A stretch of 64,000 bases of DNA from Candidatus Polarisedimenticolaceae bacterium (GCA_036275915.1 DASUCV010000006.1:1-64000), one strand, 5' to 3'. Positions 9,759 to 48,791 are shown, counted from the first letter of the stretch. Made by a program: numbers and translations. The notes: generated from the letters alone by a model not told the origin.

Positions 9759-9983
9759 ATGAACGCGAAGAAGATCCTCGGGCTCGTCCTGGTCGCCGCC
9801 GGTGTCGTCATCCTCGTCTACCGCGGCTTCAACTACACGAAGGAGAGCCACAAGGCGTCGATCGGCCCCTTCGACTTCAAGGTCAAGGAGGAGGAGCACG
9901 TCGCGATCCCGACATGGGCCGGGATCGGCGCCGTCATCGCGGGGGTCGCGATGCTCATTCTCCCGCTGCGTCGGGAGCGGTAG
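9759..9983 (+). CDS. Small two-TM membrane protein
   Basis: A 74-residue protein with two hydrophobic helices (ILGLVLVAAGVVILVYRGF, about 6-24; [18 protein letters not shown], about 53-70) joined by a polar stretch containing TKESHKASIGPFDFKVKEEEHVAIP. The layout resembles a widespread family of small uncharacterised inner-membrane proteins (DUF3185-like; tentative). Its 3' end overlaps the convergent AsmA gene by 29 bp. No function can be assigned. Confidence 0.65.
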   Translation: MNAKKILGLVLVAAGVVILVYRGFNYTKESHKASIGPFDFKVKEEEHVAIPTWAGIGAVIAGVAMLILPLRRER

Positions 9984-12900
9984 CGGCGGCCCGCTTCTCC
10001 TCTTCCTTGCGGACCTTCTTCAGCGCCTTGGCGCAGACGTTCGTCTCGGCCGTGATCCGGTCGTAGAACCCCTTCAGGAGGATCGTGATGCCGGCCGTCG
10101 CGACCGCCGCGCCGGTCGTCGCGGCGGCCTCGAGCGGCTTGGCGTCGATCTTGGGGTCCGCGAGCGTGCCGCCGAGCTTGATGAATGTGTTCGCGATCGT
10201 GCCCGGGCTGACCCCGACCCCCTTGCGCGGCTTCAGCGTCCAGGTGAGGTTGATCTCTTCGGTCGAGAGGTCGAGCTTGCCCCGGCCGAGGATCGTGAGC
10301 TTGTCGGTGCGCGTCGCGATCGGATCGACGACGACCTTCCCGTCCTCGATCGCCGCCGCCGCGATCCCGCATTCGAGAGGGGTATCGGGGCTCGTCTTCC
10401 GGAACGGATTGAGCGTGTCGAGGAGGGAGACCAGAAAGCCGGACGAAAGGGTCTTCGGTAGGCGCCCGGGTCCGAGCTGCACGAGAATCTTGCCGTCGCT
10501 CCCGCCGAGGATCTCGTGGAGGGTTCTTCCCTTCCCTGCAAGCTCGGTGTCGACGTCGAGCGTCGGGGCATCCTTCGGCGATCCGTCTTTCTTCAAGAGA
10601 AGAGTGAAGCGCCCGCCGTCGAGGCGAAGGCCGCCGTCGAACGCGTAGCCGTCGTCCGCGGGAGTGAGCGCCGCGTGCGTCATGAGGTGTCCGCCGTTCA
10701 AGCCCGTGCCCTCGAGGCGCTCGACGTGGAGGCCGCCGTCGTGAGCGCGCGCTTCGATCGAGACGTCGCGCAGGGGAACGCCGGGGAAAGCGACCTCGTC
10801 GGCCCGGAGAACGACGCGCGCCTCGAGCCGGCCAAGCGCGGTGAGGTCGATCGCGGCGTCGGGGATGACGTGTGTTCGCTTGGCGGCGACCGCGGGGGCC
10901 TTCTCGGCCGGCGGCTCGGTGAATCCGGAGATCAGCCGCGCGACGTCGAGACGCTTCGACCGCAGGTCGGCGTCGATCGTCGTCTTGTCCCCGAACGCGA
11001 GCGCGATCGAGCCGGCGACGTCGCTGTCGCCGAGCCGCGCCGAGAAACCCTCCGAGGTCATGCGCCGGCGGTCGCCCAGGAAGTGCCCCTCCGCGGCGAA
11101 CGAGTCGGTCGGGAGCGGCGACAGGCCCGTGAGCGGGCCCACGATCGCCGCGAGATCGGGGCCCTCGACGTCCACGTCGAGCGACTGGACGTCGCCGACG
11201 GTTCCGGAGACCTCGGCGTACGCGGAGCCGAGGTTGATCTTGACGCCGTCGAGTCCGGTGACGCCGTCCTTGCGCCGGATGCGCCCGCGGGCGCGGAGCA
11301 CGCCGTCGGGCAGGTGAACGCCGGCGAGCTCGGACGCGACCGTGGTGTCGGGAGCGTCGACGGCGATCGTCGCATCGGTCGCCGTCCCGACCGTGCCGTC
11401 GACCGCGAGGTGGAGGTTCCCGATCGTGCCTTCGCCACCGCGGACGCCAACGCCGCCGTCGGCCCCGCGAGCGTGGGCCTTCACGTCGAACGGCGTATCG
11501 GGAAGATGCGGCAAGGAGCCGTCCTCGAAGAAGCGAGCGATCGAAGGCAGGTGCGGGCCCACGGCGTGGAGATCGAGGTCGTACGCGGGGGCGACGATCC
11601 CATCCGCCGTGAGCGTGTCGGACCCGATCGTGCCGGTGCCGCGCTCGACGCGGTAGACGCCGCCGTCGATGCGCAGCGTGCCCTCCGCCTCGAACGGATC
11701 GGGCGGAAGCGTGGCATGGACGCCCCACGCGGCGAGGTCCGAGAGGTGGTTCCCGGATACGTGCGCGGCGAGAGACGTGGCGGCGGTGACCGGTACGCTG
11801 ACGCGGCCTTCGACGGTGGCGTCCATGCCGCCGACGTGGGCGACGACGCCTTCCAGATCGTAGGCACCGCCGGAGATCCCCACCGTGCCGCCGCCGTCGA
11901 ACGGCTGCGCGGGAAGGCCCGTCACGCCGAACGGCATGAGCGCACCGGCCAAGTCCTCTCCTCCGGCGTGGACACGGGCGCGCGAGCCGGCAAGACCTCG
12001 CACCGGCATAAGCGTGCCGTCGATGCCGTACGCGCTCGCGCCGAGATGTCCTTCGACCCCGTGGAGGCCGATCGCTCCGCCCTCGAGCGCCACGCGGCCG
12101 CGCACGTCGAACCGCTCGGCGGGAAGGTGCACCGTCGCGAGCGCGGAGAAAATGGAGGCGTCAGGGCCGCTCCCTTCGGCGGTGAGGTCGAGGTCGCGAC
12201 AACCGGGAGGCGTGCCGATCGTGCCGGACGCGTGGACGGTCGTCTCACCGACGTGCACCGTCGTTGCGCCGATTGCGAGCACGCGCCCCCGGCGTGTGAA
12301 CCGTCCGTCGACCGTGAACGGCCCCGCGGGAAGCGGAACCGTCGACACCGCCCTCAGCACCGCCAAGTCGCGGCCGCGAGCGTCGACGTCGAGCTCGATC
12401 GTCGTGCCGATCGTCCCGCTCACGCGGGCGTCGATCCCTCCCGCCGCGACGTCGACATCGGAGAGCCCTACGGCGCGGTCGGCCCAGACCACCTTGCCCG
12501 CGGCGCGGAACGGCCCCGTGGGGAGCCCACGCACACCGGTCCAGCCGCCGATGACCGCCGCGTCGGGACCGGACGCCTCGACGACCGCTTCCGCGCGCGA
12601 AAGTCCGAGGAGCGAGTCGACGGCTCCCGTCGCCTTCGCTTCCACGCCGCCGACGCCCGCGACGACCTCCACGCCGACGTCGTCCCCCTGCGGCGAGAGC
12701 TTCGCCTCGAGCTTGAACGGGCCGGCGAGGGGCGAGCGAAGGCCGAAGACCGCCAGCGCGACCGCGACGTCGGGACCCGCGACGTCGATCCCGAGCCTCG
12801 GGCCGCCGAGCGTCAATGGATCACGGAGGTGGCCTTCGACCGACAGCGTCGATTGCCCAATCCCACCGGTCAACGTCTGATCGACGTCGCGTCCTTCGAG

Positions 12901-13503
12901 GATGCTCGCGACCGTGCCGACGGTCCCCGCGAGGTGCCACGGCGCGGCATTGAAGTCGCCGCGGCCGTCGACCGCGACCATGTCGGTCGCCGGGTCGCGA
13001 TGTGCCGTGAACGACTGGATTCCCAGCTCGAGGCCGGGGCGGTGGACGAGCCGGAAATTCCGGAGCGCCGCTTCGTCGACGACGACCTTGGGGGCCTTCT
13101 TCCTGGAAGGCGGCCGTTGCGGAAGCTCGAAATGCCAGTTCGACCGCTCGAGGAGCACCCGGACATCCTCCAGCTCGACGCGGCGAACGTGGATCTCTCC
13201 CGAAAGCAGCCTTCGGAGATCGATCGAGACGGCGAGCCGCCCCGCGGTCACCATCGACGATTCCGATCCGCCCGGCACGTTGGCGAACCGCACGTCCTTG
13301 ACGGAGAGGGTCGGCGATCCGAACAGCGACAGGTCGAGCGGGCCTCCGATCGTCAGGGCCCGGCCCGTCGCCTCGCCGGCGAGACGCTCGACCTTCCCGC
13401 GGAGCCAGCCGGGGAGGGCGAGCCGCGCGGCGAGAAGGAGCGCGAGAACGAGCGCCGCCCCGACGGAAATCACGACGAGGAAGCGTTTCGCGGGGGAGGC
13501 CAT
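9955..13503 (-). CDS. AsmA-family envelope protein with nine tandem beta repeats
   Basis: A 1182-residue protein anchored by one N-terminal TM helix ([23 protein letters not shown], about 8-30), followed by an AsmA-like N-domain ([23 protein letters not shown]). Residues about 259-865 are nine tandem repeats of 64-70 residues, each opening with an LPxxPFxxxGxx signature. The C-terminal part (about 890-1150) resembles the AsmA C-domain ([21 protein letters not shown]). AsmA/TamB/YhdP relatives form long hydrophobic beta-grooves that move lipids between membranes; a similar role is inferred. GC-rich and repeat-built, but with no frameshift. It is divergent from uvrA across 59 bp. Confidence 0.85.
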
Positions 13504-18651: not shown

Positions 18652-19659
18652 ATGTCTTCGGCACTTTCCGAGCCGACCTATCTCGTCCGCGTCGCCACGC
18701 TCCTGCTCGACGACGCCGCACGGGTCGGGGTGAACCGCGAGCGGCTCGTCCGGCGCCTCGTCATCGACGAGGCGACCTTGCGAAATCCCGATGCGCGGAT
18801 GCCGCTGAGCACGCTCGTCGCGATCGTGCGGGCGGTGCTCGACGAGGCGAGCGACCCCGCGTTCGGCGTACGCGCGGGCTCGGCCCGCAGGGCGCGCGAC
18901 GCCGGCCTCATCGGCTATGCGATGCTCCACTCGACCACGTTGCGTGACGCCCTGTCGCGTCTGGCGCGTTACGGCCGCATCGTGGGCGACCAGAATCGCT
19001 TCGAGCTGCAAGACGGGACGATCGTCTTCGAGAGCCACCCCGGCCTCGAGTCGATTCCGGAGATCGTGGAGCTGAACCTGGCCTGGATCGTCGCCGTTCT
19101 CCGCGAGATCGCGGGGCGCGACATCGTCCCGGCCGCCGTGCGATTCCCGGCGAAGGAGCCGGAGCACGTGCAGGCGCTCCACGCGCACTTTCGGTGCCCT
19201 CTGGAATTCGACGTGCGGCCCGCGGCCATCGTCATGCACGGCGCGGATCTCGACACGACCGTGGCGTCCGCGGATGCGACGCTCGTCGGGTATCTCGACA
19301 AGCTTGCGGACGAAGCCGTGCGTGCGCTCGGCGCCAACACGACGACGGGACGGCTCCGCCAGGTCCTCTGGTCGCGCCTGAGCGCCGGCGCGCCCACCCT
19401 CGATGCCGCCGCGGCGACGATGGCGATGAGCCCGCGCACGCTGCAGCGGCGGCTCGCCGACGAAGGGACGACGTTCGCGGACGCGCTCGGCGCGCTCCGG
19501 CACGATCTCGCGGCCGGTCTCCTCGACGACCCGAAGCTCGCCGTCTACGAGGTCGGGTTCCTCCTCGGGTACGCCGACCAGAGCGCCTTCCACCGGGCGT
19601 TCCGCCGCTGGTACGGGATGTCGCCGCGACGCTTCAGGGAGAAGTCGCGCCGCCCCTAG
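18652..19659 (+). CDS. AraC-family transcriptional regulator
   Basis: 335 residues. The N-terminal part (about 20-200) matches the OruR/ArgR-type arabinose-binding-like sensor domain of AraC regulators (MPLSTLVAIVRAVLDEASDPAFGVRAG; DAGLIGYAMLHS). The C-terminal AraC double helix-turn-helix (about 240-330) shows AAATMAMSPRTLQRRLADEGTTF and VGFLLGYADQSAFHRAFRRWYGMSPRRFR. The ligand is unknown. Its TAG stop is interlocked with the TAG of the convergent hydrolase-DedA-ATP-grasp gene in a CTAG (19656-19659); it might regulate that neighbour, but this is only proximity. Confidence 0.88.
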   Translation: MSSALSEPTYLVRVATLLLDDAARVGVNRERLVRRLVIDEATLRNPDARMPLSTLVAIVRAVLDEASDPAFGVRAGSARRARDAGLIGYAMLHSTTLRDALSRLARYGRIVGDQNRFELQDGTIVFESHPGLESIPEIVELNLAWIVAVLREIAGRDIVPAAVRFPAKEPEHVQALHAHFRCPLEFDVRPAAIVMHGADLDTTVASADATLVGYLDKLADEAVRALGANTTTGRLRQVLWSRLSAGAPTLDAAAATMAMSPRTLQRRLADEGTTFADALGALRHDLAAGLLDDPKLAVYEVGFLLGYADQSAFHRAFRRWYGMSPRRFREKSRRP

Positions 19660-22211
19660 ACGTCGACGTGGCGCGCGGCGGCCGCGCGATAGCGGCCGAT
19701 CATGCGCACGAGCTGAAGGAGTCCCGTCGTCGGCGCCCCGCGCGCCCGGTTTTCCGCGCCGATCTCGTACGCCAGCCGCCACTGCCGGAAGAGGATCGCG
19801 TAGGCATCGAACGGGCCCTTCGCCGCGTCGTACACCGACGTGGCCTCGGACGTCACGCCGTTCAGCTCGATGACCTTGAGCTCGCCGCGGCGAAACGCCT
19901 CGACGGAGGGCGAGCGCACGTCGTAGCGGCCGAAGCAGAAGCCGTCGAACGTGCGGCTGACGCGGTCGATCGCGGCTTCGAGCTCCGGCGTGGCGTGACG
20001 CATCCCGTCCCGGAAGAAGGCGCCGCGGCAGTGCGTCCCGAGCTCGACGAGCTGCACCCGTTCTCCGCTCGGGACGACGTCGTGCAGATGCTCGTGCTGC
20101 TTGTCCAGGTAGGTTGGCGCCATCGGGAGGGTACGGCGGTCGGTGAGGATCAGCTCCTCCAGGGTCCGCGCTCCGTCGCCGGTCACGGCGGGGAGCTCCT
20201 TCTCGGTGATCGCGAAGATACGCCCGCGGTCTTCCGACGGGCGCCGCACATAGAAGACGCCGAACTCGACGCCGGGGGCGTACTGCTGCGCGATGACGTC
20301 GTACGGCGCCGTGCGGAGGTACGCATCGACCTCGTCCCAGCTCTTCGCGATGACGACACCGGAGCCGCGCTGGCCTGCGTCGGGCTTGAGGACCAGCGGG
20401 AGCCCCAGGTCACGCACGCCCTCGGCGTCGCCGCCGCGCACGAGGTGCCACGGCGCCACTGTGTCGCCGGCGCGGGCGAGGCCGGTCAGGATCTGCGCCT
20501 TCGACTCGCCGATGAAACCGCCGGCCTCGATCGCGGGGTTCGCGGCGGTGAAGAGCGTCATCCCGCGAAGTCGGACGCCGAGCCACGCCGCGTAGAGCAC
20601 GACCGGTGGATAGAAGACGTACGGTGGCCAGTACTCCCAGCGCACCAGCCGGCGCCAGCCCGACGCGAGGAGCCGGCGGCCGCGCCAGGTGAAGAGCTTG
20701 GGGATCGTCCGCGTCGCGATCGTGACGATCACGAACACGACGACGACGGCGGGCAACGCGTAGGCCTCGAAGCGATCGAAGACGTCGAGAACCGGCGCGC
20801 CGACGAGGACCGTCACGCCGACGAGGAGGGGCGTCCAGAGGATCGCCGCGACCCCGAACCAGAGCATGAACGTCCAGAACGGCGTGCGAAGGACGCCGGA
20901 CGCGAGGTAGGTCGTGAAGCGCGTCCCGGGGAGGAATCGGCTCGCCAGGATGACCATCGGACCGCGCTCACGAAACCACTCCGAGCTCCGCTCCATCTGA
21001 TGAGGTGTGATGAACCAGCGCATGGGAGCGCGGGCAACGACCGCGCGGCCGAGCGTGCGCCCGATGAGGAAGAGCAGGATGTCGCCGATCAGGATACCGA
21101 GCAGGCTCGCGACCGTGCCGGCGAGGAAGCTGAGGCGTCCGGCGGCGATGAGGAGGCCGGCGCCGATCGACGAGAGATCCTCGCTGACGAGAGTGGACGC
21201 CGAGATCAGGGCGAGGACGATGAGGCGCGGGATGCCTTTGAACTTCGGCAGCGATCTCGGATCGAACGGCCTCGCCGCGGCGGCGATGCGCTCCGGATCC
21301 GCCGTCGCGCGCGTCGGCGCGTCGCCGCGCTCGACGCTCTCGAGGAACGGCAGCACGACGCCGGGGAGGCGGTTGTCCTGGCGAACGAAGACCATGAAAT
21401 GACTGGCGGGTGTCATGACGATCCGCGCTTGCGGGACGAGGCGCGCGTGCTCCTCGGCCGCCTGGATCGGCACGAGCGGGTCTTCCTTGCCGTGGATGAT
21501 GAGCATCGGCGCCGCGAAGCGCGACAGGATGCCGCGCAGCGGACGCTGGTCGGAGTCGTAGAAATTGCGGGCGTAGCTCACGCCGAACAGGCTGTGGTCG
21601 AGCGCGCCGAAATGCGGGGTGAGCTCCCGCAGCGACCAGATGAGAGCGAGCTGAATCCCGTGGAGCGCGTGGTTCATCCGGTAGTCGCCCAGCAGCTCGT
21701 ACTCCTGCGCGCCGATCGCCGAGAGCATCGTGATCGAGCGGACGCGCCGCGGCGCGATGTCGGCCATCGAGAGGACGACGCCGCCCCCCATGCTGAAGCC
21801 GACGAGGTGCGCCTCGCCGATCCGGAGGGCGTCCATCAGCTCGAGGACGTAGCGGGCGTGGGCGCGGAACGAGTAATCGGGGATCCGGCGCTCGCTGGCG
21901 CCGAACCCGGGAAGGTCGGGGGCGATGACCCGGTACTCCTTCGCGAGGGCGGGCAGCACGTTGTCGAAATCGTAGGAACCGCCCGGGCTGCCGTGAAGGA
22001 GGATGACGGCGGGCCGGTCTCGAGGACCGGCATCCCGATACGCGATGCGGAGCGTGCCCGCTTGCGGTCGATCCCCCGCGACGATGGGAACGTCGACGGT
22101 GGCGAGGCCTGCGGGAACCGGGCGCTCCGGCTGCGCGTGGCGCACGATCCACGACGCCGCGAGCAGGACGAGATAGAGTGCCGCGAGCGCGCGGACGATC
22201 TTGCCGGTCAC
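19656..22211 (-). CDS. Alpha/beta-hydrolase - DedA (VTT) - ATP-grasp triple fusion membrane protein
   Basis: 851 residues from a GTG with no Shine-Dalgarno but a TGCTAGACT element 8 bp upstream. In order: signal anchor (5-23); alpha/beta-hydrolase (about 50-295) with Ser140 (GFSMGG), Asp244 (GKEDPLVP) and His271 (ASHF) as the likely triad; DedA/SNARE-associated membrane domain (about 325-500) with SEDLSSIGAG and the SRFLPGTR motif; a further hydrophobic stretch (531-545); and an ATP-grasp domain (about 555-825) with Lys609 (LVLKPDAGQRGSG), Glu649 (GVEFGV), Asp764 and the metal-binding E-x-N (IELNG, 782-784). DedA proteins move lipid carriers or phospholipids; ATP-grasp enzymes ligate carboxylates to amines. 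Together they suggest envelope-lipid remodelling and transport, which is inference. Confidence 0.85.
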   Translation of the reverse strand: MTGKIVRALAALYLVLLAASWIVRHAQPERPVPAGLATVDVPIVAGDRPQAGTLRIAYRDAGPRDRPAVILLHGSPGGSYDFDNVLPALAKEYRVIAPDLPGFGASERRIPDYSFRAHARYVLELMDALRIGEAHLVGFSMGGGVVLSMADIAPRRVRSITMLSAIGAQEYELLGDYRMNHALHGIQLALIWSLRELTPHFGALDHSLFGVSYARNFYDSDQRPLRGILSRFAAPMLIIHGKEDPLVPIQAAEEHARLVPQARIVMTPASHFMVFVRQDNRLPGVVLPFLESVERGDAPTRATADPERIAAAARPFDPRSLPKFKGIPRLIVLALISASTLVSEDLSSIGAGLLIAAGRLSFLAGTVASLLGILIGDILLFLIGRTLGRAVVARAPMRWFITPHQMERSSEWFRERGPMVILASRFLPGTRFTTYLASGVLRTPFWTFMLWFGVAAILWTPLLVGVTVLVGAPVLDVFDRFEAYALPAVVVVFVIVTIATRTIPKLFTWRGRRLLASGWRRLVRWEYWPPYVFYPPVVLYAAWLGVRLRGMTLFTAANPAIEAGGFIGESKAQILTGLARAGDTVAPWHLVRGGDAEGVRDLGLPLVLKPDAGQRGSGVVIAKSWDEVDAYLRTAPYDVIAQQYAPGVEFGVFYVRRPSEDRGRIFAITEKELPAVTGDGARTLEELILTDRRTLPMAPTYLDKQHEHLHDVVPSGERVQLVELGTHCRGAFFRDGMRHATPELEAAIDRVSRTFDGFCFGRYDVRSPSVEAFRRGELKVIELNGVTSEATSVYDAAKGPFDAYAILFRQWRLAYEIGAENRARGAPTTGLLQLVRMIGRYRAAAARHVDV

Positions 22212-23013: not shown

Positions 23014-26000
23014 GTGGGCGTTCCGGGGTATCGAGTCGTCGAAGAGCTTTCGCGCACGCTGCGGCGCGCCGTGCGGATCGCGGACGGAGCCCCGGTCCTG
23101 CTCACCTCGTCGCGGCACGGAGAGTCCCGGCGCGAGCTGGCGCTCCTCGCCTCGCTCGCGATCCCCGGGATTCCCAAGGCCTACGACGTCGTGCGCGACG
23201 GGGAGGCGTCGTGGCTCGTCCTCGAGGACCGTGGCGGCGAGCCGCTCTCGGCTCTCCTCGGGGGCGGTCCGCTCGACGTCGCGACCGTCCTCCATTTCGG
23301 GCTCGAGCTCGGCGCGATCCTCGGCGGGCTCCATCGGCGTGGGTACGTGCACCATCACGTGCGACCGGCGTGCATCCTGGTCAAGCGCGGCAGCCGGGAG
23401 CTCTCGCTCCTCGATTTTGCGCACGCGACGTCGGGCGCGGCGTCGACCCCGGCGCTGCGGCCCGAGACCCTCGCCTACGTCTCGCCCGAGCAGACCGGAA
23501 GGACGAGTCGCATCATCGACGAGCGGACCGATCTGTACTCGCTCGGGCTCACGCTCTACGAGGCGCTGACCGGCATCCCTGCGTTCCGATCGACGGACGC
23601 CCTCGAGCTCATCCACGCGCAGATCGCAAGGACGCCGGACGCACCCCGGCACGTCCGTCCCGAGGTCCCGGAGCCGCTGTCGGCGATCGTCATGAAGCTC
23701 CTCGAGAAGTCCGCGGACGACCGCTACCAGAGCGCCGCGGGCCTGCACGCCGATCTCGACACGTGTGCCCGCGCGTGGAGCTCGCTCCGCGAGATCCCGG
23801 CGTTCCCGCTCGGACGGCACGACGTCACCGACCGCTTCCTCGTCCCGCAGAAGCTGTACGGCCGCGAGCGTGACGTGCTCGCGCTCCGCCGCGCGTTCGA
23901 GGCGGTCTGCCAGGGCCCGCCCGCGATGGTGCTCGTCTCGGGCTGGGCCGGCATCGGCAAGACGTCGCTCATTCAAGAGCTCTACCGTCCGATCGTGCGC
24001 CAGCGCGGCGCTTTCATTTCGGGCAAGTTCGATCAGAGCGCCAGGAACATCCCGTTCGGCGCCCTCGTCCAGGCGTTCCGCGGGCTCGTCCTGCAGCTGC
24101 TGACCGAGAGCGAGGAGCGCCTGGCGGAGCGGCGCCAGAGGCTCGAGGCCGCCCTGGGGGAGAGCGCCGCGGTCCTCATCGACGTGATCCCCGAGATCGA
24201 GCTGATCGTCGGCAAGAAGCCGGCAGCGCCGCCGCTCGCCGCCGTCGAGGCCCAGAACCGGTTCCGGATGGCGTTCCAGAACTTCGTCGGCGCGCTCGCC
24301 GGTCCCGAGCATCCGCTCGTCGTGTTCCTCGACGATCTCCAGTGGGCCGACGCCGCGAGCCTCGATCTCCTCCAGCCCCTCCTCACGAGCGCCGACGTCC
24401 GGGCGCTGCTCGTCATCGGCGCGTACCGGGACAACGAGGTCGATGCCGGCCATCCGCTGACGCGCGCCATCGCCGGCCTCTCCGCCTCCGCCGTCCCGAT
24501 CGACCGCATCGTGCTGTCGCCCCTCACACTCCCCGACCTTCACCGGCTCGTCGCCGACTGCCTCAAACGGGACGATCCCGAGGTCGAGGAGCTGGCGCGA
24601 CTCGTCGCGCGAAAGACCGAGGGAAACCCGTTCTTCGTGATCCAGTTCCTGAAGTCGCTCGGCCAGGACGGTCTCCTCCGCTTCGACGCCGAGGAGGCGC
24701 GCTGGGTCTTCCGCGTCGACGACATCGCGCGCGCGCCGATGACGCAGAACGTGATCGACCTGATGGATCGCAAGATCCAGCGCCTCTCGTCCCCCGCGCA
24801 GGAGACCCTCACGCTCGCCGCCTGCATCGGCAACCGCTTCGATCTGGGGACGCTGGCGACGGTGAGCCGCGAGACCCCCGAAGCGGTGGCGTCCTGCCTG
24901 CAAGAGGCGCTCGACGAAGGGCTCGTGCTCCGCGATCCCGACGCCGACACCTACGCCTTCCTGCACGACCACGTCCAGCACGCGGCGTACGCGAGGCTGC
25001 CGGACGGCGAGCGGGCGGGGCTGCACCTCACCCTCGGGAGGCTCCTGCGTGCGTCGTGGGGTCGCGCGGCGGAGGACGAGCGCATCTTCGACGTGGTCGG
25101 CCACCTGAACGTCGGCCGCAGCCTCATCGTCGACGAGGGCGAGCGCTTCGACCTGGCGCGACTGAACCGGATCGCGGGTGACCGCGCGAAGTCGTCGACG
25201 GCGTACCAGGCGGCCCTCGAGCACTTCCGGACCAGCCGCCAGCTGCTCGGAGAGGATCAATGGGCGACGGACGGTCCATTCACCTTTGCCGTGCATCTCG
25301 GGGCCGCCGAGTGCGAGTACCTCTGCGGTCACTTCGACGAGGCCGAGCGCCGCTTCGAGCACCTGCTCGCGCGTGCCCGGACGATGGTCGACAAGGCCCG
25401 CGTGTACGAGCTGCGTGTCGTCCAGCACGAGAACATGTCGCGCTACGCCGAGGCGGCCCGGATCGGCTTCGCCGGCTGCGCCCTCTTCGGGATGGAGTTC
25501 CCCGAGGATCCCGACGCCGTGGCGGCGATGCTCGAAGGGGAAATGGCGGCGATCGAGCGCTTGCTCGACGGCCGGCCGATCGCGTCGCTCGTCGACCTTT
25601 CGGTACTGGACGATGCCGAGACGCGGATGCTGCTCAAGCTCCTCACGACGACGTGGGCCCCGGCGTACATCCTGGGCAACGCGCGGGGCGCGTCGTTGAT
25701 CTCCGCGCGGATCGTGCGTCTCTCGATCGAGCGCGGGAATTCGGAGGATTCGGCATACGGCTACGTGACGCACGCGATCACGGTGGGTCCGCACCGGGGC
25801 GATTACCGCTCGGCCTACGACTGGGGGGCGCTCGCGCTCGCGGTCAACGACCGGTTCGCCGACCAATCGCGCCGCTCCAAGATCCACCAGCAGTTCAACG
25901 CGCACGTCACGCTCTGGCGGAGGCCGCTTCACACCTGCATCCCGCACGCGCGCGAAGCCTGCCGGAGCGGCCTCGAGTACGGCGATTTCGCCTATGCGGG

Positions 26001-28416
26001 GTACGGCGCCTTCACCGAGAGCTGGCCGGCGTTCCTGACGAGCGGGGACCTCGGCGCCTTCGTGCGCGACTACGTCCCGACGCTCGCCGTCCTGGCGAAG
26101 GTGAGGATGCACGGGCTCGTCGACGCGCACACGGTGATGCTCCAGTGGGCCCGGGCGCTCCTCGGCGAAACGGACGGCCCGTGTTCGCTCTCGGGACCGG
26201 GATTCGACGAGGCGGCGTACGTCGCGAGGCATCGCGAGAACCGGTTCTTCATGACCGTGCTGCGGATCGCCCAGCTCCACCTCGCGGTCGTGCACGGCGA
26301 CGTTCCCGCCGCCCTCGCGGCGGCCCGCGAGGCCCGAGCGCTCGGGCCGTGGGGCCGGGGCACGATCTGGCCGGTCCTCCTCGAGTACTGGGGCGGCCTC
26401 GCGATCGCATCGGGTTACGACGGATCGCGGCCGCTCGACGCCGGTGACGCGCGCGCACTCGAGGCCGCGCGGGAGACGCTCGAGGCGCTCGCCGCGAGCT
26501 GTCCCGAGAACTTCCTCTGCTTCCACCTCACGCTCGACGCCGAGGCGAGGCGGATCGCCGGCGATCGCGCCGGCGCCACCACTCTCTACGAGAGCGCGCT
26601 CCAGGCCGCCCGCCGGTACGACGCGGTCCAGCACGAAGCGCTCGCCCATGATCTCGCGTCGAGGGCGTTCGCCGCGGCGGGCCTTCCGACCGCCGCGCAC
26701 GCCCACCGGGAAGAAGCGCGCCGCGCCTACCGCGCGTGGGGCGCGGTCTCGAAAGCGGGCTCCGCCGCTGCGGTCGCCGAGGTGCAGGGGGTGACGATCG
26801 ACGTCGCCTCGGTCGTCAAGGCGGCCCACGCCCTCTCGGGGGAGATCGTCCTCGAGGAGCTGCTCCGCAAGCTCATGTCGATCGCGATCGAGAACGCGGG
26901 GGCCGAGCGAGGGGTGTTTCTCGAGGAGAAGGACGGGCGGCTCGTCGTCGAGGCGGAAGGACGCGTCGGCGGCGAGGCGGTTCGTGTGCTCGAGTCGCGG
27001 CCCCTCGAAGAAGCCGATGTCTGCCGTGCGGTCGTGCAGTTCGTGCGGAAGACCGGCGAAGGTGTCGTCGTCGCCGACGTCGGGAAGGACGAGCGGTTTG
27101 GCGGCGATCCCTACGTCGTCGCGAGGAGCCCGAAGTCGGTGCTCTCGGTTCCAGTCGTCCGGCAGGGGAGGCTGGGCGGCATCCTCTATCTCGAGAACAA
27201 CTTGACGGCCGGCGCGTTCACCGCGGAGCGGATCCGCATCCTCGACCTCCTCTCCGCGCAGGCGGCGATCTCGCTCGAGAACGCGCGCCTCTACCGCGAC
27301 CGCACGCAGGAGGTCGAGCGCCGCAAGCGCGCGGAGGACGACCTGCGCGCCGCTCTGGGAGAGGTCGAGACGCTCAAGAACAGGCTCGAGGCCGAGAACG
27401 TCTACCTGCAGGAGGAGATCCGCAAGGAGCACAACTTCGAGGAGATGGTCGGGAGCTCGCCCCAGCTCCTGAGCGTCCTCCGGACGGTCGAGCGGATCGC
27501 GCCCACCGACTCGACCGTCCTGATCTACGGCGAGACGGGGACCGGCAAGGAGCTCATCGCGCGCGCCATCCACGACCGGAGCGCGCGCAAGGGCCGGCCG
27601 CTCGTGAAGGTCAACTGCGGCGCGATCGCCGCCGGGCTGGTCGAGAGCGAGCTCTTCGGCCACGTGCGAGGTGCCTTCACGGGGGCGATCGAGAATCGCG
27701 TCGGGCGCTTCGAGCTGGCGCGCGGCGGCACGATCTTCCTCGACGAGGTCGGCGAGCTCCCGCCCGAGACGCAGACCAAGCTCCTGCGCGTCCTGCAGGA
27801 GCACGAGTTCGAGCCGGTCGGCGGGAGCCGCACGGTGCGCGTCGACGTGCGCGTCCTGGCGGCGACGAATCGCGATCTCGAGGAGGCGATGCGCGGGGGC
27901 CGCTTCCGTCCCGACCTCTATTACCGGTTGAACGTCGTGCCGCTGACGGCCCCGCCGCTCCGCGAGCGGAAGGGGGACATCCCGCAGCTCGTCGCCTTCT
28001 TCCTCGAGCGGTTCTCGCGCCGGTTCGGCAAGGCGGTGAACGGCGTCTCGCAGGAGACGATGGAGCGCCTGATCCGCTACCGCTGGCCCGGGAACATCCG
28101 CGAGCTCCAGAACGTGATCGAGCGCGCCGTCGTCCTCATGCCGGGGAGCGTGCTCACCCTCGATCACGAATTGAACCCGGCGCCCGGATTCCAGCTCGAT
28201 CGACCGATGGAACCGCTTCCGCAAGCACCGACGGGGGGCGAGGCGCCCGCGCTCGAGGACGTCCAGCGGCGCCACATCATCGAGGTCCTCGAGCGGACCC
28301 GTGGCGTCATCGAAGGCGAAGCCGGGGCGGCGAAGATCCTGAAGCTCCACCCCAACACGCTTCGCAGCAAGATGAAGAAGCTCGGCATCCGCCGCGCAAC
28401 CCACGATATTTCGTAG
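23014..28416 (+). CDS. Giant sigma-54 activator: pseudokinase - AAA/NACHT-like ATPase - helical repeats - GAF - sigma-54 AAA+ - Fis HTH
   Basis: 1800 residues from a GTG with AGGAG 7 nt upstream. An STK-like domain (about 1-280) has lost catalytic residues: YVHHHVRPACIL replaces HRDxKPxN and LLDFAHAT replaces DFG, so it is probably a non-catalytic sensor. An ATPase module follows (about 290-480; GWAGIGKTS, LVVFLDDLQWAD), then a long helical-repeat region (about 500-1270), GAF (about 1280-1425), a coiled linker, and the sigma-54 interaction domain (about 1478-1700) with GETGTGKE, GAFTGA (about 1553) and GGTIFLDEVGELP. The end is a Fis-type helix-turn-helix (AAKILKLHPNTLRSKMKKLGI). GAFTGA predicts real contact with sigma-54 polymerase. 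A sigma-54 promoter and dyads lie directly downstream. Confidence 0.92.
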   Translation: MGVPGYRVVEELSRTLRRAVRIADGAPVLLTSSRHGESRRELALLASLAIPGIPKAYDVVRDGEASWLVLEDRGGEPLSALLGGGPLDVATVLHFGLELGAILGGLHRRGYVHHHVRPACILVKRGSRELSLLDFAHATSGAASTPALRPETLAYVSPEQTGRTSRIIDERTDLYSLGLTLYEALTGIPAFRSTDALELIHAQIARTPDAPRHVRPEVPEPLSAIVMKLLEKSADDRYQSAAGLHADLDTCARAWSSLREIPAFPLGRHDVTDRFLVPQKLYGRERDVLALRRAFEAVCQGPPAMVLVSGWAGIGKTSLIQELYRPIVRQRGAFISGKFDQSARNIPFGALVQAFRGLVLQLLTESEERLAERRQRLEAALGESAAVLIDVIPEIELIVGKKPAAPPLAAVEAQNRFRMAFQNFVGALAGPEHPLVVFLDDLQWADAASLDLLQPLLTSADVRALLVIGAYRDNEVDAGHPLTRAIAGLSASAVPIDRIVLSPLTLPDLHRLVADCLKRDDPEVEELARLVARKTEGNPFFVIQFLKSLGQDGLLRFDAEEARWVFRVDDIARAPMTQNVIDLMDRKIQRLSSPAQETLTLAACIGNRFDLGTLATVSRETPEAVASCLQEALDEGLVLRDPDADTYAFLHDHVQHAAYARLPDGERAGLHLTLGRLLRASWGRAAEDERIFDVVGHLNVGRSLIVDEGERFDLARLNRIAGDRAKSSTAYQAALEHFRTSRQLLGEDQWATDGPFTFAVHLGAAECEYLCGHFDEAERRFEHLLARARTMVDKARVYELRVVQHENMSRYAEAARIGFAGCALFGMEFPEDPDAVAAMLEGEMAAIERLLDGRPIASLVDLSVLDDAETRMLLKLLTTTWAPAYILGNARGASLISARIVRLSIERGNSEDSAYGYVTHAITVGPHRGDYRSAYDWGALALAVNDRFADQSRRSKIHQQFNAHVTLWRRPLHTCIPHAREACRSGLEYGDFAYAGYGAFTESWPAFLTSGDLGAFVRDYVPTLAVLAKVRMHGLVDAHTVMLQWARALLGETDGPCSLSGPGFDEAAYVARHRENRFFMTVLRIAQLHLAVVHGDVPAALAAAREARALGPWGRGTIWPVLLEYWGGLAIASGYDGSRPLDAGDARALEAARETLEALAASCPENFLCFHLTLDAEARRIAGDRAGATTLYESALQAARRYDAVQHEALAHDLASRAFAAAGLPTAAHAHREEARRAYRAWGAVSKAGSAAAVAEVQGVTIDVASVVKAAHALSGEIVLEELLRKLMSIAIENAGAERGVFLEEKDGRLVVEAEGRVGGEAVRVLESRPLEEADVCRAVVQFVRKTGEGVVVADVGKDERFGGDPYVVARSPKSVLSVPVVRQGRLGGILYLENNLTAGAFTAERIRILDLLSAQAAISLENARLYRDRTQEVERRKRAEDDLRAALGEVETLKNRLEAENVYLQEEIRKEHNFEEMVGSSPQLLSVLRTVERIAPTDSTVLIYGETGTGKELIARAIHDRSARKGRPLVKVNCGAIAAGLVESELFGHVRGAFTGAIENRVGRFELARGGTIFLDEVGELPPETQTKLLRVLQEHEFEPVGGSRTVRVDVRVLAATNRDLEEAMRGGRFRPDLYYRLNVVPLTAPPLRERKGDIPQLVAFFLERFSRRFGKAVNGVSQETMERLIRYRWPGNIRELQNVIERAVVLMPGSVLTLDHELNPAPGFQLDRPMEPLPQAPTGGEAPALEDVQRRHIIEVLERTRGVIEGEAGAAKILKLHPNTLRSKMKKLGIRRATHDIS

Positions 28417-29454: not shown

Positions 29455-29940
29455 TCAGTCGTCGACCTTGATCTGCTTCCCGTCGTTCTTGACGACGGCC
29501 GGCCAGTACTTGTCCGCCTTCTTCAGATTGCCCTGCACGTCCTCGTTCCACAGACGGACGGCGCGCGCGTTGTGCTGAATGACGAGACGCCCGTTCACGA
29601 TCGAGAAGGTGCTCACGTCGATCGGCGCGGTGCGTCCCTGCGAGACGGCGTAAGCGCAGAAGGCGCCGAACTGCGGCTCGTACTTCATCGGCTCCTTGTC
29701 GAACAGCGCCTTGTGCTCGGCGGAGGAGAAGTAATAGGTCGCGCCGTCGGCGCTCGACCGGTAGGTCTTCGTTCCCATCACCGGCTTGCCTTCGGTGAAG
29801 AATGCGACCGGGTCGTAGCCATCGAGGATCACGCCCTCGGCGTTGAGGTTCAGGAGCTGCGTGCTGTGGTTGGCGAAGGCCGCGGCGGCGGGGACCAGGA
29901 GGACGACGCCGAGGGCCAAGCGGAAGAGGGTCGAGCTCAT
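29455..29940 (-). CDS. Secreted YHS-domain protein (copy 1)
   Basis: 161 residues: signal peptide (LFRLALGVVLLVPAAAAFA, cleavage about residue 25) and a YHS-type domain (LDGYDPVAFFTEGKPVMGTKTYRS; FSSAEHKALFDKEPMKYEPQFGAFCAYAVSQG). Such periplasmic proteins often neighbour metal or redox genes; their biochemical role is not established. The ATG at 29940 is preferred over one two codons upstream because AAGGAG is then 7 nt away. It is the last gene of the GH63-DM13-YHS operon. A better-conserved relative lies at 44798-45253. Confidence 0.85.
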   Translation of the reverse strand: MSSTLFRLALGVVLLVPAAAAFANHSTQLLNLNAEGVILDGYDPVAFFTEGKPVMGTKTYRSSADGATYYFSSAEHKALFDKEPMKYEPQFGAFCAYAVSQGRTAPIDVSTFSIVNGRLVIQHNARAVRLWNEDVQGNLKKADKYWPAVVKNDGKQIKVDD

Positions 29941-29963
29941 GTTCATTCTCCTTGGGACTCGGC

Positions 29964-33085: not shown

Positions 33086-33130
33086 GGAGGACCTCCGCCG
33101 CTTCGATGCGAAGGGCGAAGGTTGTGTTTC

Positions 33131-33184
33131 AGAGGGGACAGCTTCCGAAACTCGATGGAAGGAGTTTCGGAAGCTGTCCCCTCT
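33131..33184. repeat. Palindromic repeat (GGGGACAGCT family), perfect 23-bp arms
   Basis: Arms 33131-33153 and 33162-33184 are perfect inverted copies around an 8-nt loop. The left arm is identical to 29378-29400. The right arm ends in the first base of the anti-sigma gene's stop codon (TTA read on the plus strand), so the element starts directly after that gene. With the copy at 29378 it brackets the whole GH63-DM13-YHS operon. Confidence 0.88.
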
Positions 33185-33432
33185 TATCGCTTGCTCGACC
33201 TCGCGGCGAGCACCGCCTTCACGAGGTCCTCGGGGACGTCGGCGGGCACCGGCGCTTCAGGGTCCTTGAACGCCGCCTTCTCGAGCTCGATCGTCTCGCA
33301 ATAGGTGTTCAAGTAGGCGACGCAGGCGACGCAGTCGGCGACGTGCCGGTCGAACGCGTCGCGCTGCGACGCGTCGAGCTCCCCGGACAGGTAGTCCATC
33401 AGAAACTCGACGAACGTCTTGCACGTCACCAT
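33184..33432 (-). CDS. Zinc-finger anti-sigma-type protein (orphan)
   Basis: 82 residues with the pattern of ZAS-type anti-sigma factors: MVTCKTFVEFLMDYLSGELDASQRDAFDRHVADCVACVAYLNTYCETI, giving Cys4, His30, Cys34 and Cys37 as zinc ligands (H-x3-C-x2-C). The ATG at 33432 is preferred over an in-frame GTG 30 nt upstream because family members start MVTC and because AGAGG precedes it. There is no TM helix, so it is soluble. Its sigma partner is not adjacent; the ECF factor at 28798 is the nearest candidate. The stop codon is continuous with the palindromic repeat. Confidence 0.8.
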   Translation of the reverse strand: MVTCKTFVEFLMDYLSGELDASQRDAFDRHVADCVACVAYLNTYCETIELEKAAFKDPEAPVPADVPEDLVKAVLAARSSKR

Positions 33433-33491
33433 CGCGGCCCGCCTCTCGAGTCGATCGGTCACCGTCTAGGATGCGGCCGGCCCCTGGCTGG

Positions 33492-34175: not shown

Positions 34176-34228
34176 CGGCGGCCCCCTTTCCAACCGTTCG
34201 ATGCGCGTGCCTCGGCGAGGTTTCATCA

Positions 34229-34257
34229 TTGACGCGCCGGCCAAGCACCGGTATCTA
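34229..34257 (+). promoter_or_regulatory. Sigma-70 promoter for a leaderless small gene
   Basis: TTGACG (34229-34234), 17-bp spacer, TATCTA (34252-34257). The expected start falls on or within a base of the ATG at 34264. No Shine-Dalgarno is present. This supports the small gene behind it. Confidence 0.55.
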
Positions 34258-34263
34258 TTCCGC

Positions 34264-34545: not shown

Positions 34546-34599
34546 GGCCGTAACCCGCTGACGGTACGGGGCATCCCACCTTCGTCAAGGAGGTGTGCC

Positions 34600-35001
34600 G
34601 TGCCGCTCTCGAAGCCCGAAACCGTGGTGAGCTGGATCCTCCAGCTCGTCGCCGCCGCGATCCTCTTCCAGACCCTCTTCTTCAAGTTCACCGGTGCCGA
34701 GGAGTCTGTCTACATCTTCACCAAGCTCGGCATGGAGCCGTGGGGCCGCATCGGCTCCGGCGTCGCGGAGCTGATCGCCTGCATCCTGCTCCTGGTGCCG
34801 CGCACCGTTCCCTTGGGCGCGCTGCTGGCGCTGGGCGTGATCACCGGCGCGATCGTGAGCCACCTCACCAAACTCGGCATCGTCGTCAAGGACGACGGCG
34901 GCCTGCTCTTCGGCCTCGCGGTCGTAGTGTTCGTCGCGAGCGCGATTGTGCTCGTGATCCGGCGCGGGCAGCTCCCGGTGGTGGGAGCGGCGCTGCGCTA
35001 G
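34600..35001 (+). CDS. DoxX-like membrane protein
   Basis: 133 residues with four predicted TM helices (about 9-28, 53-67, 72-92, 105-124). IAAAILFQTLFFKFTGAEESVYIFTKLGMEPWGRIGSGVAELIACILLLVP has the pattern of the DoxX/DoxD family, small membrane proteins linked to quinone or thiol redox chemistry. The GTG start is supported by AAGGAGG 7 nt upstream. The exact partner is unknown. Confidence 0.82.
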   Translation: MPLSKPETVVSWILQLVAAAILFQTLFFKFTGAEESVYIFTKLGMEPWGRIGSGVAELIACILLLVPRTVPLGALLALGVITGAIVSHLTKLGIVVKDDGGLLFGLAVVVFVASAIVLVIRRGQLPVVGAALR

Positions 35002-44797: not shown

Positions 44798-45253
44798 TCA
44801 ATGGCCCAGCAGGTGCGGCCAGTTCGTGTCGCCTTTCTTGATGTTCCCGGGGACGTCGGCGCTCCACTTCTTCTGGATGTCGAGCGAGTAGTTCAGGTAG
44901 AGGCGACCGTCGACGATCGTCCACGCCTTCGGATCGATGCCGGCCGTATCGTTCTGCGCGACCGCCCAAGCACAGTACCCGCCGTACTGCGGAGCGTACT
45001 TCGCGGGCTCTTTCACGAACAGGTCCCGGTGCTCCGCCGATACGAACCGCCAGGTCGCTCCGTTCCACGTCGTCTGGAACTCCTTCTTCCCCTCGACCGG
45101 CTTGCTGTCGGTGAAGTAGGCGACGGTGTCGTAACCCTCGATGGCGACGCCGCCGAACAACGACTTGTTGACCGGAGAAAGGGCGAAGGCGGGAAGCGCG
45201 GCCAGGGCGACCGTCAGGACGACCGGGGCGAGGGTACGGCGAACGGGGATCAT
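44798..45253 (-). CDS. Secreted YHS-domain protein (copy 2)
   Basis: 151 residues: signal peptide (RRTLAPVVLTVALAALPAFA, about 24) and a canonical YHS-type domain (IEGYDTVAYFTDSKPVEGKKEFQ; FVSAEHRDLFVKEPAKYAPQYGGYCAWAVAQ; PKAWTIVDGRLYLNYSLDIQKKWSADVPGNIKKGDTNWPHL). It is closer to the family consensus than the copy at 29455. The start overlaps the DinB-like gene's stop by 4 nt (45250-45253), so the two are co-translated. Metal or thiol chemistry in the periplasm is a common suggestion for the family but unproven. Confidence 0.87.
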   Translation of the reverse strand: MIPVRRTLAPVVLTVALAALPAFALSPVNKSLFGGVAIEGYDTVAYFTDSKPVEGKKEFQTTWNGATWRFVSAEHRDLFVKEPAKYAPQYGGYCAWAVAQNDTAGIDPKAWTIVDGRLYLNYSLDIQKKWSADVPGNIKKGDTNWPHLLGH

Positions 45254-45804
45254 GAAGCCTCCTTTCGCCAGTGGCGAAGCGTCGATGGCGCGACACCGAA
45301 ATCAGCCGGCGGCTCGATCCCCGCGGACCTCAGGAGAATCGCCACGACGGCGAAATGATGGGTCGTGTGGCTCGCGAGGAACTGCGCTTCCCGCGCGGCG
45401 GTCGAGCTCGTCCAGTCCTCCTCGATGTCATCCACGCACTCCTCCGCGCGGACCGCGAGCGTGGGGAGGATCGCCGCATCCTCGAGCCGCTCGAGAGCGG
45501 CGATCGTGGCACGCACCTCACGAAGGGCGGCCATGCGGCTCCTTTCGACCGCTCCTCCCCGTTGACGCCGGACGTAGTCGATCCGTCCCCTCGGCAGTCC
45601 GCGAAGGAAGCAGCCGTAAAACTCGAGACAGTGCCGCATGTGGAGAGAGATACCGCCCCCCGGCGATAGAGGGTCGGTCCTCAGGTAGTGTGCGTCGTCG
45701 ATACGCTCGAGAAGCTCCTCGGCCTGCATCAGAAGGGCGACGTTGAGCGTGAGGATGGACGATAGATCCGTCGTACGGTCTGCCAGAGCTGCCTCCACGC
45801 GCAT
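45250..45804 (-). CDS. DinB-like helical protein
   Basis: 184 residues with the four-helix DinB/YfiT pattern: VALLMQAEELLERIDDAHYL, SIGLHMRH-like GGGISLHMRHCLEFYGCFLRGL (His of the metal site), and FLASHTTHHFAVVAILLRSAGIEPPADFG (second histidine pair). The family includes metal-dependent thiol (bacillithiol/mycothiol) S-transferases. ATG at 45804 is supported by AGGAGG 7 nt upstream; an in-frame start 16 codons earlier has no ribosome-binding site. First gene of the DinB-YHS pair. Confidence 0.82.
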   Translation of the reverse strand: MRVEAALADRTTDLSSILTLNVALLMQAEELLERIDDAHYLRTDPLSPGGGISLHMRHCLEFYGCFLRGLPRGRIDYVRRQRGGAVERSRMAALREVRATIAALERLEDAAILPTLAVRAEECVDDIEEDWTSSTAAREAQFLASHTTHHFAVVAILLRSAGIEPPADFGVAPSTLRHWRKEAS

Positions 45805-45916
45805 GGTCGGCCTCCTGCACTCAGATGCACGGGCCGCCAGATGGTTACACAAGACTCACGGCTCGTGAAGCGACGGCTCGTGCGAGACTCCCCCGCGCGT
45901 CGGGAAGGGGGAAGCC

Positions 45917-47014: not shown

Positions 47015-47788
47015 TCAGTCGAGTCGCCGGTACTCCCTCGGGTCCGCATACAGGTAATACAGGTCGTCGCGTCGCTCGAGGCGGCCGGTGATCGAGACGG
47101 GGCGCGCGACCAGGTCGAGGACCTCTCGGTTGACGGGAGCCCCGGTGGACGAGACGAGCACGACCTCGGCTTCCCGTCCGCTCGAGTCCCGGGCGTAGAG
47201 CAGAGGCGGGATGCCGCCGCTGATGCACCGGATCGCGCAGGCGCGATGGACCTCGAGCCGGCCCGGGTTCATCACGCCGAGAAAGCACTTGCCGTCGACG
47301 ATCTCACCGCTCAAGGTCCACGTGCCGAGATCGTCGATCGAGGCCGCCGGCACGGGCACGCCGGGGACGCTCGCCCGCGCGATGCTGCCTTCGACGACTT
47401 CGATCATCTCTCGACCGTCCCGCGCGATCCGCTTGCCGCGAAGGGTGACTTGCGCACCGTCGAACGCTTCGGCGATCGTCGCGGCACCGTGTTTTCCCGG
47501 GGCGACGAGGAGGAGACGCCGGACGCCGAACGGCGAACGCGCGCCGGGGTCGACGATCGAAACGGCGGGGACGGGATGCGCTTCCAGCGTGCCGCGGTAC
47601 TCGCGCACCTGGTCGAACTCGAACAGCGAGCGATCGAACGGTCCCGTCGACGCGGCGACGAGCGCCGCGAGGCCGCCGAGAGCGACGATGAAAACCAGCG
47701 CGGTGCGCCACATCCGCCGCCGGGCGCTCTCCGGAGCCGGCAGGTAGCCGACGAAGAACGGCTCCTCGGGACGCACGCGGTCAGCCAT
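47015..47788 (-). CDS. TM-anchored protein of the ferric-reductase/Rieske operon
   Basis: 257 residues with one TM helix (TALVFIVALGGLAALVAAS, about 29-47) and a long exported domain. A recurring cysteine/histidine motif DGKCFLGVMNPGRLEVHRACAIRCISGGIPPLLYA (three Cys, one His, about 173-207) looks like a metal or haem site. Family unknown; similar proteins are recalled beside Rieske-ferric reductase genes, which is from memory and not checked. Its ATG overlaps the reductase gene's stop by 8 nt. Confidence 0.7.
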   Translation of the reverse strand: MADRVRPEEPFFVGYLPAPESARRRMWRTALVFIVALGGLAALVAASTGPFDRSLFEFDQVREYRGTLEAHPVPAVSIVDPGARSPFGVRRLLLVAPGKHGAATIAEAFDGAQVTLRGKRIARDGREMIEVVEGSIARASVPGVPVPAASIDDLGTWTLSGEIVDGKCFLGVMNPGRLEVHRACAIRCISGGIPPLLYARDSSGREAEVVLVSSTGAPVNREVLDLVARPVSITGRLERRDDLYYLYADPREYRRLD

Positions 47789-48791
47789 GGATCATGGAGG
47801 GCGGCACCGGAGTTCCCGGCGGGTGCGCGTGCGGGTTCACGAAGACCCGCCCGTCGATGAGACGCGTGTCGAACGTCGGAATCCGCTCCGTGAACGGCTC
47901 GGGCGAGCGCCCCGACTCCGGAAGGTATTGATAGCCGTGCCACGGGCAGGTGATGCAGCCGTCCAAGACTCGTCCTTCCCCGAGGGGACCGTTTTGATGC
48001 TGACAGAGGTTCGAGACCGCGGCGACCTTGTTCCCGTACCGGAAGACGGCGATCCGCTCGCCGGCCGCGCACACGATCCGAGCACGCCCGTCGGGAATCT
48101 CGAGCGCCGGGCCCGCGTCGATCCAGTCCGCGGGAGTTCGCGGCCGCTCGGCGTCATCAGCGCGCTCCTTCCATCCCGCAGCGAGGTGGAGACCGGCGAT
48201 CCAGAGAACGTCGAGGCCGGTGCCGATCGCGAGGATCGGGTGCACCTCGGAGCGCAGCGCGCCGAAGGCGACATGAGCGACGACGAGCGCGTACGCCGCG
48301 TAGACGCCGACATGGAGCGACTTCCAGATGGGGGCCGAGAGCGTCGCAAGCCAGAAATCGTGGCTCGTGGCAGCCATCACGAACAGGATCGCCAGGGCCA
48401 TGAGACCCATCGTCTGGAAACCGGGGTCGCCTCCGAGCAGGCTGACGAGCGGCGAGACGTCGCCCAACGCATGGAACTGCACCGTCGCGAAGGCGCCGTG
48501 CGCCAAGGCGACGAGAAAGGTCGTCACCCCGAGATGGCGGCGGTTGTAGAGGAGCGGTAACCATCGGACGTCGAGCCGGCAGGCGGGGCCGATCGAGAGG
48601 ATCACCGTGAGCAGGACGAATGCCAGACTGCCCAAGGCGCGGATCAGGATCGTCTCGATCGTCGCCGACGGATGGACCGCAAGACCGGCGCTCACGAAGA
48701 CCGCCAGGTAAACGATCACGCCCGCGGCGATCGCCGCGTCGTAGCGTCTCTTGAAGGGGGTCCACGAGATCGCTCGATACGTCGCGCTCAT
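47781..48791 (-). CDS. Ferric-reductase-like membrane domain fused to Rieske [2Fe-2S]
   Basis: 336 residues. Six predicted TM helices (about 22-39, 48-68, 90-108, 128-145, 160-180, 188-205) of the ferric-reductase/cytochrome b type, with His86, His98, His160 and His173 as haem ligand candidates (YNRRHLGV; LAHGAF; KSLHVGVY; VAHVAFG). Residues about 225-325 are a Rieske domain with Cys263/His265 (CQHQNGPLGEG) and Cys282/His285 (CPWHGYQY). It could move electrons between a quinone or cytosolic donor and an exported acceptor. It overlaps its neighbours by 4 and 8 nt, so the operon is tightly coupled. Confidence 0.86.
   Translation of the reverse strand: MSATYRAISWTPFKRRYDAAIAAGVIVYLAVFVSAGLAVHPSATIETILIRALGSLAFVLLTVILSIGPACRLDVRWLPLLYNRRHLGVTTFLVALAHGAFATVQFHALGDVSPLVSLLGGDPGFQTMGLMALAILFVMAATSHDFWLATLSAPIWKSLHVGVYAAYALVVAHVAFGALRSEVHPILAIGTGLDVLWIAGLHLAAGWKERADDAERPRTPADWIDAGPALEIPDGRARIVCAAGERIAVFRYGNKVAAVSNLCQHQNGPLGEGRVLDGCITCPWHGYQYLPESGRSPEPFTERIPTFDTRLIDGRVFVNPHAHPPGTPVPPSMIHG

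Follow-up and report, generated by a model that had tools for sequence, protein, structure and literature searches.

A hydrolase–DedA–ATP-grasp fusion protein as a candidate aminolipid-processing enzyme in Acidobacteriota and other phyla

What would a bacterium do with a hydrolase, a DedA membrane domain and an ATP-grasp ligase joined in a single polypeptide? Such a protein is encoded in a stretch of 64,000 nucleotides from Candidatus Polarisedimenticolaceae bacterium (GCA_036275915.1, DASUCV010000006.1:1-64000), which was analysed as a whole and is called the window here. Our analyses revealed that relatives of this fusion gene lie beside, and occur together with, genes of the OlsB/OlsA and OlsF type. 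We consider the chances about even that the fusion finishes and translocates the lipid made by an OlsB/OlsA (or OlsF) aminolipid pathway.

Architecture and distribution of the fusion

The fusion gene is read from the minus strand, which the preliminary description of the window had not specified, as one open reading frame of 851 amino acids with no internal stops. It starts with a GTG codon at 22211, with an alternative in-frame start upstream at 22490, and is single-copy and full-length in its own genome. A membrane anchor, an alpha/beta-hydrolase, a DedA/VTT domain and an ATP-grasp ligase follow one another from the N-terminus (Table 1). That three domains share one chain, as first proposed, is confirmed by the reading frame, Pfam, the profile and fold searches and the recurrence of the fusion; the residues singled out at that time, S140 (in GFSMGG), D244, H271, SRFLPGTR from residue 424, and K609, E649, D764, E782 and N784 of the ATP-grasp domain, are all found at the positions given.

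The preliminary description had also called for a check that the fusion recurs elsewhere. The same domain order is found in at least 45 named genomes, at 37-55% identity, and the relatives stay conserved through the domain borders. Because this order recurs in many unrelated assemblies from many phyla, including two chromosome-level records (CP036296 and CP011806), an assembly or sequencing join of three genes is ruled out with near certainty.

Of 297 genomes of the same phylum, 39 have all or most of the DedA–ATP-grasp core, and in about 24 of these the hydrolase is present too. At least 557 relatives were recovered when species genomes were scanned, and the best 80 were used for phyla, architecture and loci. 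These come from Acidobacteriota, Verrucomicrobiota, Lentisphaerota, Planctomycetota, Gemmatimonadota, Calditrichota, KSB1, Thermodesulfobacteriota, Myxococcota, Rhodothermota, Balneolota, Bacteroidota, Spirochaetota, Chloroflexota and Actinomycetota. Of 78 readable genes, 45 have the complete three-domain architecture and 22 are without the hydrolase; in the other 11 an ATP-grasp but no DedA part was called, and some of these may be truncated or decayed. Parsimony gives 12 gains or losses of the hydrolase, at least three of them forced by supported branches, and the tree does not decide whether hydrolase and core were fused only once. In some relatives (G552:C1:1518276-1519209, G451:C1:1077082-1077872 and locus L038 of G237), the ATP-grasp or hydrolase part is interrupted by stops or frame breaks, which seem to reflect gene decay in some lineages, or draft errors.

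The hydrolase belongs to the alpha/beta-hydrolase superfamily (Abhydrolase_1, E 6.1e-37), and its triad is kept in nearly all of the 43 aligned three-domain proteins (S140 in 41, D244 and H271 in 42 each). In a profile search of solved structures it matches the membrane phospholipase A 6i8w (5.9e-25), which we take to be PlaF, the membrane-anchored phospholipase A of Pseudomonas aeruginosa. The two share the hydrolase fold and an N-terminal membrane anchor, and the catalytic domain of PlaF is periplasmic, as predicted for that of the fusion; PlaF, however, is a stand-alone enzyme, whereas the fusion hydrolase is one of three domains. Since the hydrolase is absent from about one-third of the family, it is an accessory part. 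The likeness to a phospholipase would also suit a turnover machine, in which the hydrolase degrades outer-leaflet aminolipids or phospholipids, and DedA brings the product back across the membrane for re-joining or salvage by the ATP-grasp domain. This explanation uses the same parts and topology and agrees with the order of steps in the preliminary description. However, the members that lack the hydrolase keep the ATP-grasp domain, so that the core function should be to ligate and flip, and the genes linked to the fusion are biosynthetic. We therefore regard a turnover machine as unlikely.

The membrane domain is a member of the DedA superfamily (VTT_dom, E 5e-20; 72.6 bits versus a cut-off of 33.9). 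Residues D345, R425 and R431 align with Asp51, Arg130 and Arg136 of the COG0586 DedA flippases, which are essential there, the arginines being thought to bind phosphate (PMC10127716). The fusion thus shares with UptA, YghB and YqjA of COG0586 the VTT fold, the aspartate of the first reentrant helix and the two arginines of the second. It differs from them in that the Glu39 position has no acidic counterpart, only D345 and the adjacent E344 being present, and in that it is joined to two enzymes; the DedA fusions on record carry rhodanese, PAP2 or pyridine-nucleotide oxidoreductase domains, and those of COG0586 only the first two (PMC10127716). A sequence search for a solved DedA relative found none. 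The aligned residues, together with a match to the UptA model (6.7e-19), could indicate undecaprenyl-phosphate (C55-P) or another isoprenoid carrier: the ATP-grasp domain would aminoacylate a carrier-linked envelope precursor, DedA would flip this in the manner of UptA, and the product would be released in the periplasm by the hydrolase. The UptA score (68.7 bits) lies far below the equivalog cut-off of 250, the Glu39 position is not acidic, and the genes that recur around the fusion are those of aminolipids; none of the ones identified is a peptidoglycan or O-antigen gene. A carrier-linked substrate is therefore quite improbable.

For the C-terminal domain, Pfam gives only a sub-threshold RimK/ATP-grasp match with the window protein (E 0.25), and the excised domain likewise has no model above its cut-off; the ATP-grasp assignment comes from cyanophycin-synthetase models, a PDB profile search and fold comparison. 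The first recognise this part in all 24 relatives tested, and the second recovers the same assignment. The structural model of the domain, with a mean predicted local distance difference test score (pLDDT) of 94.4, falls within the ATP-grasp superfamily (Foldseek 4e-12; VIA Z 17.2 to 7wae), its best solved relatives being cyanophycin synthetases (Z 15-17). A conserved NPxxxxGGFxGESK lead-in opens the domain, and K609, E649, D764, E782 and N784 are invariant in all 43 aligned three-domain proteins. On the modelled fold, the domain is of the carboxylate-amine ligase class and nearest to cyanophycin synthetase. The ATP-grasp domains of cyanophycin synthetase and GshAB, both carboxylate-amine ligases, are the closest in fold and sequence, at 20-24% identity; the fusion differs in being without the other domains of cyanophycin synthetase and in being membrane-tethered. 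The full-length cyanophycin synthetase equivalog gives 33-34 bits, as compared with the required 850 or more.

The full-length AlphaFold model has a pLDDT of 93.2 and a predicted template modelling score (pTM) of 0.78. Three segments are positively charged throughout the family, namely the N-terminal anchor, loop 394-430 and stretch 507-530, unlike the loop near 478. From this charge bias and the model, the N-terminus is predicted to lie inside, the hydrolase in the periplasm and the ATP-grasp domain in the cytoplasm.

Linkage to and co-occurrence with aminolipid genes

Unbiased clustering of the neighbours at 35 loci yielded a gene of 270-290 amino acids in 20 loci, one of 170-230 amino acids in 16 and one of about 270 amino acids in 10, all sitting just upstream of the fusion and mostly on the same strand. 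They are OlsB-like (PF13444; OlsB model 1e-40), DinB-like (weak, 1e-4) and OlsA-like (2e-41). The OlsB-like neighbour scores 139.7 bits against an equivalog cut-off of 320, below the level that would make it ornithine-specific. In the 80 named loci this pattern repeats in many phyla, and TANGO2-like, DoxX-like and ferric-reductase/Rieske proteins as well as a Cys-motif protein, C5, are added to it. Where enough flank was available (43 loci), OlsB was found within five genes in 25, DinB in 26 and OlsA in 17. The gene directly preceding the fusion is most often a member of the DinB-like family (54 loci), which has conserved histidines. Stop/start overlaps (spacing -4) couple OlsA-, DinB- or TANGO2-like genes directly to the fusion in seven genomes, and at one locus (L057) the ferric-reductase/Rieske, C5, OlsB, OlsA and fusion genes form one tight run. 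The olsB-olsA pair follows the fusion rather than preceding it in several Verrucomicrobiota, so the linkage has been kept despite rearrangement. Moreover, OlsF-like genes adjoin the fusion gene divergently in one Desulfobacterales and one deltaproteobacterial genome (L106, L107).

Co-occurrence, scored by a strong OlsB/OlsF acyltransferase (PF13444) match, agrees with this linkage. In Acidobacteriota the match is present in 35 of 39 carriers versus 27 of 258 non-carriers (p 4e-24), and counted by genus in 20 of 23 versus 11 of 144 (p 3e-15); in other phyla, 32 of 34 chosen carriers have it. For strong fusion matches in Verrucomicrobiota, where the base rate is about 57%, the figures are 19/19 versus 126/222 (p 4e-5). 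When all fusion matches of that phylum are taken, the association is weaker (21/25 versus 124/216, p 0.01) because OlsB/OlsF is common there. By linkage and by co-occurrence alike, the fusion is a linked component of the OlsB/OlsF pathway.

Two further neighbours deserve comment. A TANGO2-like gene adjoins 5 of 11 two-domain forms versus 1 of 28 three-domain forms (p 0.004), and the TANGO2-like protein may stand in for the hydrolase, which we take as a lead only. For the most part, the TANGO2/NRDE genes coupled to the fusion family accompany members without the hydrolase (L081, L120, L123, L125, L132, L138 and L141); their coupling to such members or to OlsF suggests a role of bacterial TANGO2 in aminolipid metabolism. 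C5 is a membrane-anchored protein with the Cys motif KCxxGxMxPG, then CAxxCI and then GGIP, and belongs to no Pfam family. It is coupled to the ferric-reductase-like/Rieske protein, and the two are repeatedly found together ahead of olsB-olsA-fusion operons.

The window and its genome

In the window, the fusion gene is adjoined by a divergent short-chain dehydrogenase gene (22239) and a convergent AraC regulator gene (18652), neither of which is recurrent. Homologues of its partners elsewhere are instead scattered over 34-49 kb of the window (Table 1), the DinB, DoxX, YHS and Rieske ones within 30 kb of the fusion gene; the ferric-reductase/Rieske homologues lie, in other genomes, upstream of C5 and olsB. 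Targeted searches of the same genome located an OlsF-like gene (5.5e-110; 368.6 bits versus an equivalog cut-off of 620) beside a TANGO2-like gene (G000:C2, L069:8064-8930) on another contig. With these two genes and those at 34-49 kb, the window organism has most of the partner set, in dispersed form.

Table 1. The fusion gene, its domains and homologues of its recurrent neighbours in the window
Feature	Coordinates	Strand	Basis or remark
Whole fusion gene, 851 aa, GTG start	19656..22211	-	Stop codon 19656-19658
N-terminal membrane anchor, residues 1-26, positive start	22134..22211	-	AlphaFold helix 3-26; hydropathy and charge
Alpha/beta-hydrolase domain, residues 41-300, Ser140/Asp244/His271, predicted periplasmic	21312..22091	-	Pfam, alignment, solved relatives
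DedA/VTT domain and basic juxtamembrane tail, residues 301-530	20622..21311	-	Pfam, alignment
ATP-grasp ligase domain, residues 531-851, predicted cytoplasmic	19659..20621	-	Profile, fold, alignment
DoxX-like protein, homologue of a frequent fusion-family neighbour (24 loci)	34600..34998	+	
YHS-domain protein, homologues neighbour the fusion in 9 loci	44801..45253	-	
DinB-like protein, homologue of the top immediate upstream neighbour (54 loci)	45253..45852	-	
Rieske and NADPH-dependent FMN-reductase-like protein; closely related proteins encoded near the fusion in L112, L120 and L126	45917..47011	+	
C5, membrane-anchored, conserved Cys motif; homologues in 22 loci	47018..47788	-	
Ferric-reductase-like membrane domain and Rieske; homologues in 25 loci	47784..48791	-	

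The DinB-, DoxX-, YHS- and Rieske-type neighbours leave room for a redox or metal-stress reading. The ligase would then act on a small cytoplasmic metabolite, such as a thiol or a peptide, within a redox/metal-stress module, and DedA would serve mainly as a transporter or anchor. Redox genes recur near the fusion as well as at 34-49 kb of the window, and the DinB superfamily includes thiol-dependent transferases. However, the OlsA coupling and the OlsB/OlsF co-occurrence are the strongest signals, and the lipase-like domain and DedA both indicate a lipid. A metabolite ligase is, in our judgement, improbable.

Several other genes of the window were also observed. The gene at 23014-28413 (+) encodes a protein of 1800 amino acids with kinase-like, AAA_16, GAF, sigma-54 activator and Fis-type helix-turn-helix domains; a homologue with 53% identity lies two genes from the ATP-grasp gene at an acidobacterial locus (L116), and an ECF sigma factor stands beside this protein both there and in the window. 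Two YHS-domain proteins are exported, that of Table 1 and one encoded at 29458-29961 (-), and their relatives precede the ATP-grasp gene in Opitutaceae (L096 and L109). The region 30395-43173 holds genes for an MGH1-like glycoside hydrolase, glucose dehydrogenase, GMC oxidoreductase and SMP-30/gluconolactonase, homologues of which are also near the fusion in a few other acidobacterial loci. A repetitive protein of 1182 amino acids with an N-terminal membrane segment, encoded at 9955-13503 (-), appears AsmA-like by eye.

A possible aminolipid finishing pathway

The assignment of the fusion to the finishing and translocation of an aminolipid builds on its domains, their conserved residues, its recurrence and the olsB/olsA/olsF linkage, all of which are observed, and on the predicted topology; from these we infer the substrate, the reaction and the direction of flipping. 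At the cytoplasmic face, the ATP-grasp domain would activate a carboxylate with ATP and make an amide bond on the aminolipid. OlsB yields an N-acylated amino acid whose carboxylate is free, chemically resembling the C-terminus that is extended by cyanophycin or glutathione synthetase. Because of this resemblance we propose that a second amino acid or an amine is most likely joined to this carboxylate, which would give a lipodipeptide; the ornithine-taurine cerilipin is a known lipid with two amino acids (PMC4484230). DedA would then flip the conjugated aminolipid, and the periplasmic hydrolase would trim it, removing either an ester-linked acyl chain or the added group. In the latter case, the removal would set the level of the lipid, as AcvB does for lysyl-phosphatidylglycerol.

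The favoured analogy for such a mode of working is LpiA/AcvB, in which a synthase, a flippase and a periplasmic hydrolase act together on lysyl-phosphatidylglycerol (PMC13135905). The logic that the fusion would share with LpiA and AcvB/VirJ is cytoplasmic attachment of an amino acid to a lipid, a flip and periplasmic hydrolysis, with the parts coupled at the gene level. LpiA differs in using lysyl-tRNA, an MprF-type synthase/flippase and partners from phosphatidylglycerol metabolism, whereas the fusion would employ ATP-grasp and DedA, with all three parts in one chain and olsB/olsA as partners. No MprF domain is found among the Pfam matches of the fusion, and the likeness is a functional analogy only. 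The ornithine-lipid synthases OlsB/OlsA and OlsF, whose genes are neighbours of the fusion or co-occur with it, probably belong to the same pathway, but it is they that make the aminolipid. The earlier idea of a machine that trims, flips and re-conjugates a lipid is supported in part: lipid processing agrees well with the linkage and co-occurrence, with the two enzymes predicted on opposite faces. The order of steps is another matter: trimming first is not favoured, and conjugation in the cytoplasm, flipping and trimming in the periplasm would be the most parsimonious sequence.

Several observations weigh against an aminolipid role. Among the carriers, 4 of the 39 in Acidobacteriota and 4 of the 25 in Verrucomicrobiota are without a strong OlsB match. 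The genomes are phylogenetically dependent, and the p values are therefore overstated, although the acidobacterial result stands at the genus level. The OlsB, OlsA and OlsF homologues lie below their equivalog cut-offs, leaving the amino acid unspecified. In the genome of the window, OlsF is encoded away from the fusion gene, whose direct short-chain dehydrogenase and AraC neighbours are unrelated. The DinB, DoxX, YHS and Rieske neighbours are hard to place in the scheme, and the pTM leaves the arrangement of the domains uncertain.

A review of aminolipids (PMC11631085) describes no conjugating or flipping protein and mentions no flipping step. Our literature search, which covered few subscription papers and no preprints, found no aminolipid flippase, no head-group-extending ATP-grasp enzyme, and neither the fusion nor its tie to aminolipid genes; papers on stieleriacine and on the GH3-type OlsH describe N-acyl amino acids formed in other ways and do not report a protein of this kind. 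Each part has a known fold, and the novelty of the fusion and of its aminolipid tie is provisional. The fullest form of the proposal is a three-in-one enzyme with active sites on opposite faces, yielding new head-group-conjugated aminolipids (lipodipeptides on an OlsBA backbone) that are flipped by DedA and trimmed outside; this we put forward tentatively, as possible but on balance doubtful.

Ornithine-type aminolipids are phosphorus-free membrane lipids. The fusion family, found in more than 12 phyla, provides a concrete candidate for both an aminolipid flippase and a head-group-extending ligase. If this assignment is true, the cargo of DedA proteins would be wider than C55-P, and as yet unseen lipids would be predicted in uncultured soil and marine bacteria.

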